A stretch of 64,000 nt of DNA from Fictibacillus solisalsi. Its GTDB lineage: Bacteria; Bacillota; Bacilli; Bacillales; Fictibacillaceae. The translations under genes and the position numbers were made by a program. The notes below the pieces were generated by a model, which had not been told where the DNA came from, ran no database searches, and worked only from the letters and a program-made list of their open reading frames with translations. Shown one piece after another: positions 17,186-34,189 of the stretch. The stretch's first letter is position 1. Each line of letters begins with the position of its first letter. The stretch lies in NCBI RefSeq assembly GCF_900103485.1, contig NZ_FNHW01000001.1, forward strand, positions 407,418 to 471,417, written 5' to 3'.

Positions 17186-17300
17186 CTCTCATCTCTCAGC
17201 TTACGCTGTCAGATTTAGCACCGTTTCCATGCTGGTCATTCAGCATGAAGGGTTGCCGGGCTTCATAGGGCTAATTCCCTCCGCCTGCTCTTAATAAGAG
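17186..17300 (-). ncRNA. SAM riboswitch (S-box, SAM-I)
   Basis: Read on the minus strand it shows the conserved S-box core: GCGGAGGGA, then GCCCTATGAAGCCCGGCAACC, then GGTGCTAAATC, GACAGC and GAGAGATGAGAG. Helix P1 is closed by CTCTTAT (17294-17300) and ATGAGAG (17186-17192). High S-adenosylmethionine should favour the downstream terminator and switch off metQ. Confidence 0.95.
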
Positions 17301-32381: not shown

Positions 32382-32418
32382 AAAAAAGCGGCGGATTGCT
32401 GAAATCCGCCGCTTTTTT
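32382..32418. terminator. Bidirectional terminator
   Basis: AAAAAAGCGGCGGATT and AATCCGCCGCTTTTTT are perfect 16-bp arms between two convergent genes. Confidence 0.93.
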
Positions 32419-32691
32419 CTAATTTTCATAGTTATGCTGTTCTTCAATCCGTCCGTGTTCGTTATGGATGATGGCCATGGTGCCGGCTTTTTCTGCCATG
32501 CGGTTGGCCTCTTTTACCGCTTCGGATTTGGAGCCGGTTGTGTGTTGTGGCTCGTCTTCTCCTTCTTTCTTTACAGCCCAGCCTTCTTGTTCATGAGGAA
32601 CCACATGGAAGTGGGCTTTATCGGTTCCTGCCCGGTCCTCGAAATATTGGTCGCGCTCCTCATTTCCAGAACGATTGTTGTTTTGTGCCAT
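32419..32691 (-). CDS. DUF2188 domain protein
   Basis: A 90-residue hydrophilic protein. Residues 26-80 show the DUF2188 pattern HVVPHEQEGWAVKKEGE, then KSEAVKEANRMAEKAG and MAIIHNEHGRI. The family is widespread and of unknown function. RBS AGGAGGG. A sigma-B-like promoter lies 40-65 bp upstream, suggesting a general-stress protein. Confidence 0.88.
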   Translation of the reverse strand: MAQNNNRSGNEERDQYFEDRAGTDKAHFHVVPHEQEGWAVKKEGEDEPQHTTGSKSEAVKEANRMAEKAGTMAIIHNEHGRIEEQHNYEN

Positions 32692-32766: not shown

Positions 32767-33240
32767 TTAGCTTATTTCTTCAATGTTCCAGGTGTTTTCA
32801 ATAGCTACACCCCCCTTAAGAGTTTGGGCCACGGGGCAGTTCCGTTCAAAAACGTTGAGAGCCCGAATAGCGGCTTCTTTTTTGCCCAGGGGAACTTTCA
32901 GGTTAAAGTGGCATGATATTCTGGTGATTTTCAAAACGCCCTCCGGTGCCTCAATTTCGCCTTGAACGTTAGCGGATAATGTGTCGGGTGATGTTGGTAT
33001 GTGACGCGCATCCAGCGCGCCTGCTAATGTGCCAGTCAGTCAGCCACCGGCAGCGGCAACAATATGGTCGAGGGTGGATGGGTACTCCACCTCGGGTTCC
33101 ACTCCGTAAAATTGTTTAACCCCGCCATGTACACCATATAAAACGGGATCAGGAAATTCTCCGATATACGCTCTGCGGACCTTGTTTTTTGTGTCATCCT
33201 GAAAGATGATAATGCTTGTTAACGCAATAGGATCACTCAT
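32767..33240 (-). CDS. OsmC-family peroxidase, candidate selenoprotein with in-frame UGA (residue 67)
   Basis: A 157-residue OsmC/Ohr-type thiol peroxidase if UGA 33040-33042 is read through. The first part ends STLDHIVAAAGG, then UGA, then LTGTLAGALDARHIP in the same frame. The frame continues without other stops through LSANVQGEIEAPEGVLKITRIS and AAIRALNVFERNCPVAQTL to TAA at 32767. In this family the position of the UGA is the first catalytic Cys and NCPVAQ holds the second. RBS AAGGAGG is strong and there is no frameshift. A hairpin obeying bacterial SECIS rules starts 18 nt after the UGA. It would reduce organic hydroperoxides. The alternative is a nonsense mutation of a Cys codon. selA, selB, selC and selD are not in the window. 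Confidence 0.75.
33003..33042 (-). promoter_or_regulatory. Candidate bacterial SECIS element following the osmC UGA
   Basis: After UGA (33042-33040) come 18 bases, then GGCGCGC (33021-33015), loop TGGAT (33014-33010) and GCGCGTC (33009-33003). All seven positions pair (one G-U). The loop carries G at its second position and begins 25 nt after the UGA. These values fall inside the published bacterial SECIS pattern (short loop, G in the first two loop bases, about 16-37 nt from UGA). Confidence 0.6.
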
Positions 33241-33286
33241 TATTCACCGCCTCCTTATCTTCCTTAATATCCCTGCGGACCTTGTT

Positions 33287-34189
33287 TCAAACCTTTTCGT
33301 TTTCGTTGGGCGGAACAAAAACAGAAAGATGGCGGGAGAGGACAGATGCGGTAAAAGGCAAGGGTTCTCCTTCATCTCCGTCAATATTGACAGCCATTGT
33401 TTCAGAAGAAGAAACAGCAAGGGATGAAGACTGTATGTATGTCACATCGGAATGCTCTTGCAGTTCCCCTTTGAATAGTTTCGGAAAAAGATTCAGGGTG
33501 CCTGGTAATGAAATATTTTTAAATATATATACATGAAGTCTGCCATCGTCGACCTCAGCCTGGGGAGCAAGCTTCTCGAAGCCGCCAACAGAGTTGGTCA
33601 TCGCCGCCACCAAAAGGTAGGCATTTCCTTCCCAAGTTCCCCCGTTGTGGGAAATCTTTAATGAAAACGGCGTTTTAGTGGCCAGTGCTTTTATGCCTTC
33701 CACAAAATAAGCAAGCGGACCAAGTTTTGTTTTTTGGTCAGTGCTCACATTATAGGAGGCTTCAGCAATCGCGCCTACAGCAAGGACGTTCATAAAGTAT
33801 TGATTGTTAACTTTGCCGATGTCGGCTTTTCTGAGGTTTTTATAAGGAAGAATTTTTAAGGCTTCCTGGGCATCAAGCGGAATTTGAAGAGCTCTCGCAA
33901 AGTCATTGACCGTTCCAAGGGGAATGATGCCAAAATGGGGGCGATGCTCTTGCTCAGCAAGGCCATTTACTGCTTCATTCACCGTTCCATCGCCGCCCAT
34001 TGATAGAACAGTATCATAATGTTGCTCACATGCATTCTTGGCGAATGCAGCGGCGTCGCCTTCCTTTTTAGTTTCACAGACCAGAACTTCATCATGAAAT
34101 GTTTGAAGAACCCTTTCAGCTTCCGGAAGGAGCTCCATGGCTTGTTCTTTTCCTGAAGAAGGATTTATGATGATCATGGCTTTTTTCAA
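33287..34189 (-). CDS. Diacylglycerol kinase family lipid kinase (YegS/BmrU/DgkB type)
   Basis: A 300-residue kinase with the DAGK catalytic domain at the N-terminus (about 1-130): NPSSGK for nucleotide binding, SMGGDGTVNEAVNGL as the core motif, and GIIPLGTVNDFARALQIP. The C-terminal beta domain (about 150-290) ends with VNIDGDEGEPLPF, the second catalytic signature. It phosphorylates a lipid such as diacylglycerol, at the membrane surface but without membrane helices. It starts at TTG behind AAGGGGG. It lies upstream of the osmC gene on the same strand with a 46-bp gap and no terminator, so they may be co-transcribed. Confidence 0.9.
   Translation of the reverse strand: MKKAMIIINPSSGKEQAMELLPEAERVLQTFHDEVLVCETKKEGDAAAFAKNACEQHYDTVLSMGGDGTVNEAVNGLAEQEHRPHFGIIPLGTVNDFARALQIPLDAQEALKILPYKNLRKADIGKVNNQYFMNVLAVGAIAEASYNVSTDQKTKLGPLAYFVEGIKALATKTPFSLKISHNGGTWEGNAYLLVAAMTNSVGGFEKLAPQAEVDDGRLHVYIFKNISLPGTLNLFPKLFKGELQEHSDVTYIQSSSLAVSSSETMAVNIDGDEGEPLPFTASVLSRHLSVFVPPNENEKV

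Follow-up and report, generated by a model that had tools for sequence, protein, structure and literature searches.

OsmC-like selenoproteins have been published from the Sargasso Sea and Global Ocean Sampling marine metagenomes, where they carry the motif UxxT (PMC1088965, PMC2398784; three sequences in the former and five in the first count column of the latter), and the accessible text of reviews from 2022 and 2026 gives the same motif with one accession each (PMC9312934, PMC13188914). The first-pass annotation of the DNA described here had pointed to predictions of this kind from metagenomic surveys. Within the same superfamily, which includes the Ohr, OsmC and YhfA subfamilies (PMC5962072, PMC4069020), the reactive Cys of Ohr relies on Arg19 and Glu51 as partners and has lipoylated proteins as its reductants (PMC5962072). 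For Bacillales, a 2006 survey counted three selenoproteins (PMC1794560), and the string "osm" is absent from the accessible text of that survey, of PMC5322559, of a survey spanning over 5,200 organisms (PMC5029168) and of a 2025 prediction method (PMC12013277). PMC6080646 is, from its accessible text, a study of Rhodococcus and Polaromonas and unrelated. Among the open-access matches listed, a scope that leaves subscription papers and supplements aside, none describes an OsmC selenoprotein in Bacillales.

The window, by which we mean the whole 64,000-nucleotide stretch of Fictibacillus solisalsi DNA that was analysed, holds a gene of the OsmC superfamily with a single in-frame UGA (Table 1). 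We put the probability that this gene encodes a selenoprotein, with the decoding and the Sec67/Cys135 redox cycle proposed below, at about 0.93. The first-pass annotation placed both the gene and its UGA correctly, the strand being minus, and the strong ribosome site that it described is the AAGGAGG before the ATG. If the UGA were read as a stop, the protein would be cut short at 66 residues; read-through adds 90 residues to give 157, and the second Cys in NCPVAQ is kept, as had been noted. As far as the published descriptions go, the predicted protein resembles the marine ones in its superfamily (COG1765/PF02566), in having Sec at the redox position and in the SECIS-like hairpin after the UGA. 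It falls outside the UxxT motif, since position U+3 holds Gly70 in all 61 intact genes, with Thr71 at U+4; the lineage reads U-L-[VTISA]-G-T, or U-M-[YF]-G-T in L125 and L126. Cys homologues are tabulated for the marine proteins, whereas no Cys orthologue was found for the UxxG lineage, and the latter resides in named Bacillota, in contrast to a few marine metagenome sequences; it is these published descriptions that set the two apart. OsmC-like selenoproteins are known in kind, and what is new is a UxxG lineage of cultured Bacillota, apparently Sec-only and with an almost frozen predicted SECIS.

Table 1. Features of the predicted selenoprotein gene and its surroundings (positions within the window).
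Feature	Position	Strand	Remarks
Predicted Sec-containing OsmC-superfamily gene	32767..33240	-	157 residues, U67 + C135, stop TAA
Start codon ATG	33240-33238	-	OsmC-superfamily gene
In-frame UGA, predicted selenocysteine codon, residue 67	33040..33042	-	first catalytic cysteine position
SECIS-type hairpin	33003..33021	-	stem of 7 pairs (window's own sequence), separated from the UGA by 18 bases
Hairpin loop UGGAU	33010-33014	-	window's own sequence
TGC codon of Cys135 (NCPVAQ), second conserved cysteine	32836..32838	-	Cys in 61/61
Stop codon TAA	32769-32767	-	OsmC-superfamily gene
Ribosome-binding site AAGGAGG	33250..33256	-	precedes ATG of OsmC-superfamily gene
Upstream gene, YegS/diacylglycerol-kinase family (YegS-type lipid kinase)	33287..34189	-	ends 46 bases before osmC start
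Downstream gene, DUF2188 protein	32419..32691	-	neighbour of OsmC-superfamily gene
Terminator-like stem, 16 pairs	32382..32418	- (reported on both strands)	consensus match alone; follows DUF2188 gene

A scan of the species-genome collection with six peptide patterns, none of which includes residue 67, returned 61 loci, the closest relative being Fictibacillus enclensis (92% identity). Together with the window, TGA stands at residue 67 in 62 of 62 loci, and it does so likewise in every further locus of the lineage that was read beyond the collection. Because the same TGA recurs in dozens of separate genomes, a misread TGC or TGT, which the first-pass annotation had raised against its own reading, is excluded; the random stops that it had also raised were not seen in relatives, which show the UGA at this one site. 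One locus of the 62, L081, lacks 11 hairpin bases and has lost the frame, and counts given for 61 genes leave it out owing to that deletion (set A1 comprises 41 of the 61 intact genes and set A3 17 sequences). L081 is a Cytobacillus oceanisediminis record in which the 11-base deletion lies between GGCGCG repeats and takes out the hairpin; either the gene has truly decayed or bases were dropped there in sequencing. L064, of the same species, is intact.

On both sides of the UGA, dN/dS is 0.03-0.19 (13 pairs computed, with dS above 1 in three). The uniform TGA in the 62 loci and in further relatives, together with this low dN/dS on both sides, led us to reject sequencing error or a pseudogene. 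A global code change was also rejected: 14 of the 61 intact genes themselves end in a UGA that serves as their true stop, so the code has not simply changed. This ordinary use of UGA as a stop in the same genomes, and the existence of two frameshifted copies (L081, and G102 with a frameshift downstream of the UGA site), would fit a genuine stop at residue 67, whether in a pseudogene or after a functional 66-residue protein. We regard that reading as vanishingly improbable, given TGA at one residue in every locus, low dN/dS downstream of it, retention of Cys135 in 61 of 61 genes, and the frozen hairpin codons and link to selB described below.

A profile search over a phylum sample of 398 genomes (threshold E 1e-9 or better) matched six genomes, all with the UGA; G000 and G102 among them had come up in other samples. 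The most distant, G759, is 38% identical to the protein of the window. A sample of 154 genomes from the class of G759 gave eight matches at E 1e-7, three with the UGA (G759, G870 and G893) and five with distant Cys proteins (E 1e-8 to 1e-9). Two copies of the UGA gene are present in G350 (L092/L103), G076 (L098/L102) and G441 (L114/L118). Two records titled Chryseobacterium and Pseudomonas (L025 and L054) carry the gene at Bacillales-like identity, which may point to mislabelling or to mixed assemblies.

Neither the 398 + 398 + 154 genomes nor the collection scan, which together cover part of the phylum, yielded a Cys orthologue; the Cys proteins that did come up are all remote, and a tree places them apart from the Sec sequences. 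That tree contains 29 predicted Sec rows, chosen from those fetched, and eight Cys rows; unlike the eight Cys relatives, the Sec rows all fall on one side of one branch (support 100/99), which is present in 100% of bootstrap trees. With so few Cys rows, all of them distant, and with long branches flagged, the tree is consistent with one origin of Sec and does not prove it. From the sequences, the UxxG lineage appears to be Sec-only in everything searched. We consider it an even bet that this is a separate Ohr/OsmC lineage that exists as a selenoenzyme only, with no Cys version surviving in Bacillota, a SECIS almost frozen across the phylum and a gene that persists on its own in bacilli that decode Sec.

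Directly after the UGA lies a stem-loop with G in its small apical loop. This is the form described for bacterial SECIS elements, small hairpins that closely follow the UGA and carry guanosines in an equally small loop at the tip (PMC1088965). Between the UGA and the apical loop UGGAN are 25 bases. The sequence GGYGCGCUGGNNGCGCG recurs behind the UGA in the 61 intact genes, with codons 75, 76 and 78 being GCG, CTG and GCG in 61 of 61 where each would be expected, from pooled codon usage, to vary by 2.0 to 2.4 bits. Synonymous entropy is at its lowest in the gene over codons 75-80 (0.19 of expectation, versus a median of 0.93). Stem columns 22-28 face columns 34-40; of the seven pairs, six form in every one of the 60 distinct rows and the seventh, at the outer end, in 26, and a change on both sides of one pair is seen in none of the 60. 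Two neighbouring pairs wobble in alternation (columns 24/39: C/T 45, T/C 11, C/C 5, T/T 0), and two G-U pairs never coincide (p 1e-8, a value not corrected for kinship). Unlike the published bacterial SECIS elements, this hairpin keeps the same core across a phylum-wide spread, with small changes in L125 and L126. The identical 17-base core GGCGCGCTGGAGGCGCG is present in L117, which has 38% identity to the window protein; all seven pairs are still possible in L126, and one base change in L125 would disrupt a pair of the core. Compared with shuffled sequences, the window's hairpin region folds with an unremarkable energy (z -0.56; 45 of 200 shuffles did as well), and we rejected folding energy as proof of a SECIS because it is not significant. 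With an ordinary energy and no compensatory change, the SECIS case rests on the frozen codons, the position and the selB link, and from these we predict that the hairpin behind UGA67 is a bacterial SECIS element.

The machinery for reading such a codon, a search for which had been recommended from the outset, is all present in the organism's own genome (4.80 Mb, listed as 100% complete): tRNA-Sec (selC; 56.7 bits, Rfam gathering 47, anticodon UCA), selB (357 bits, cut-off 242), selD (405 bits, cut-off 125) and selA (563 bits, cut-off 268). The four are clustered within 5 kb (C4:1146589-1151715), about 0.7 Mb from the OsmC gene. ARAGORN misses the tRNA-Sec at L001:1501-1593, where Rfam finds it at 56.7 bits. 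The selD gene has an in-frame TGA at codon 18 (KGGUGCK; L105:5180-6238, C4 about 1149179-1150237), the usual Sec/Cys site of SelD. It is thus a predicted second selenoprotein of this genome, and a second gene would therefore need the same Sec machinery.

Across genomes, the UGA gene and selB go together. In a class sample of 398 genomes, which partly overlaps the collection scan (e.g. L029 and L089) and in which a gene match was counted at E 1e-8 or better, the UGA gene occurs in 14, and selB is over its cut-off in 14 of these 14 versus 85 of 398 overall (Fisher p 1.7e-10 by genome, 8e-4 by genus). It is likewise found in seven of seven further-checked genomes (G102 is already counted, and G001 and G002 are also in the genus sample) and over cut-off in both G870 and G893; in two checked of the five genomes with Cys proteins from the class of G759, no selB was over cut-off. 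In a genus sample selB is present in six of seven genomes and the UGA gene in three of seven, so the OsmC gene is not the sole reason that the trait is kept. At these selB frequencies in class and genus, the first-pass description of selenoproteins as rare in Bacillaceae was too strong. In G239 (L107:6694-9197), selD adjoins an ABC transporter with a phosphonate-binding-type protein, a permease and an ATPase, and the selD neighbourhood of G345 (L106:6864-8400) resembles it by eye; the transporter could be a selenium uptake system.

The base after the UGA is C in each of the 61 intact genes, and a UGA followed by C is a leaky context. This would suit read-through by other means, either near-cognate Trp suppression or insertion of Cys, which is known elsewhere at Sec UGA codons, with Sec not the main residue. 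Such read-through leaves the hairpin and the selB link unexplained, and we think it highly improbable. Sec insertion at UGA67, as the first-pass annotation proposed, is almost certainly what the invariant TGA, the hairpin and the complete machinery point to.

The accompanying label, OsmC peroxidase, holds in part. Membership of the OsmC superfamily is borne out by Pfam OsmC (PF02566), whose match to the read-through protein spans the UGA (residues 53-148; 50 bits against a cut-off of 27.5), and a peroxidase is plausible, but the OsmC subfamily model TIGR03562 (NCBIfam) gives 25.5 bits against a curated cut-off of 85.8. No NCBIfam Ohr model matched at E 0.001, and no NCBIfam model above its cut-off was found for the whole protein. 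In a profile comparison with solved chains, namely 1ukk (T. thermophilus OsmC), 1qwi and 1nye (E. coli OsmC-type) and 1ml8, which we take to be E. coli YhfA, residue 67 aligns with the first conserved Cys and Cys135 with the second Cys of each chain, which places the UGA at the first catalytic position, as had been claimed. The residues His38, Tyr45, Asp58, Arg79, Arg126 and Cys135 are invariant in 61 of 61 genes. Asp58 is at or near the Glu position. Arg22, which is R in 55 of the 61 genes and K in the other 6, falls within a similar stretch, and that it corresponds to the catalytic Arg19 of Ohr is only a guess. Because a selenolate needs no assistance to be ionised at neutral pH, loss of the strict Ohr residues may be tolerable. 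As described for the Ohr, OsmC and YhfA subfamilies (PMC5962072, PMC4069020), the protein shares the superfamily, the position of the first catalytic residue and the second cysteine; it differs in its predicted Sec for Cys, in its low OsmC subfamily score and lack of an Ohr match, and in having Asp where 1ml8 has Glu.

These differences also bear on what the enzyme does. A selenoprotein that is YhfA-like or forms a separate OsmC subfamily, and that has another thiol-redox job such as disulfide or S-oxide reduction rather than peroxidase activity, would account for the low OsmC score, the Asp58 substitution and the uncertain counterpart of the Ohr Arg, and also for the best solved match of the profile being 1ml8, ahead of the OsmC chains. 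In the accessible text of PMC4069020, which names Ohr, OsmC and YhfA, YhfA is excepted from the thiol peroxidases. Against this, the second motif, CPVAQ, is nearer to the OsmC chains (CPVS) than to 1ml8 (CSVA), and with the single protein as query 1ukk, an OsmC, is the only solved match. The low-pKa selenolate, moreover, suits peroxide chemistry. We hold a non-peroxidase role to be a real but lesser possibility, and incline towards a peroxidase, with rather better than even confidence.

Most of the genes around the OsmC gene recur beside it in the two Fictibacillus relatives and not beyond, including the YegS/diacylglycerol-kinase gene, which adjoins the UGA gene in both and is not a widely common neighbour. 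Its co-transcription with the osmC gene is possible, and the DUF2188 gene is possibly the last of that transcript. The idea that a partner in an operon might point to the substrate was rejected, as the largest common neighbour family occurs in 9 of 61 loci. In four genomes the UGA gene lies 7-9 kb from selB; the intervening genes differ between two genera, and no partner was established in that interval. Phage or plasmid carriage was rejected too, with no match in plasmids or phages and, in viral contigs, 26 pattern stretches of which 0 were confirmed. Elsewhere in the window is a SAM riboswitch (17186-17300, minus strand; Rfam RF00162, 71.4 bits).

In the mechanism that we propose, SelB bound to the mRNA hairpin would bring Sec-tRNA(Sec) to UGA67, and the ribosome would insert selenocysteine there and go on to residue 157. 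The Sec67 selenolate would most likely attack a hydroperoxide, or another oxidised substrate, to give a selenenic acid, which Cys135, the likely resolving residue, would convert to an Se-S bridge. A dithiol or low-molecular-weight thiol reductant would then reset this bridge.

This lineage is a predicted selenoenzyme family in dozens of named Bacillales genomes. Its function can be probed by deleting the gene and withholding selenium, and the alignment of its predicted SECIS is very clean. Since no close Cys homologue turned up, searches that look for Cys/UGA pairs are prone to miss it. If the Sec-only reading is true, the UxxG proteins would be obligate selenoenzymes.
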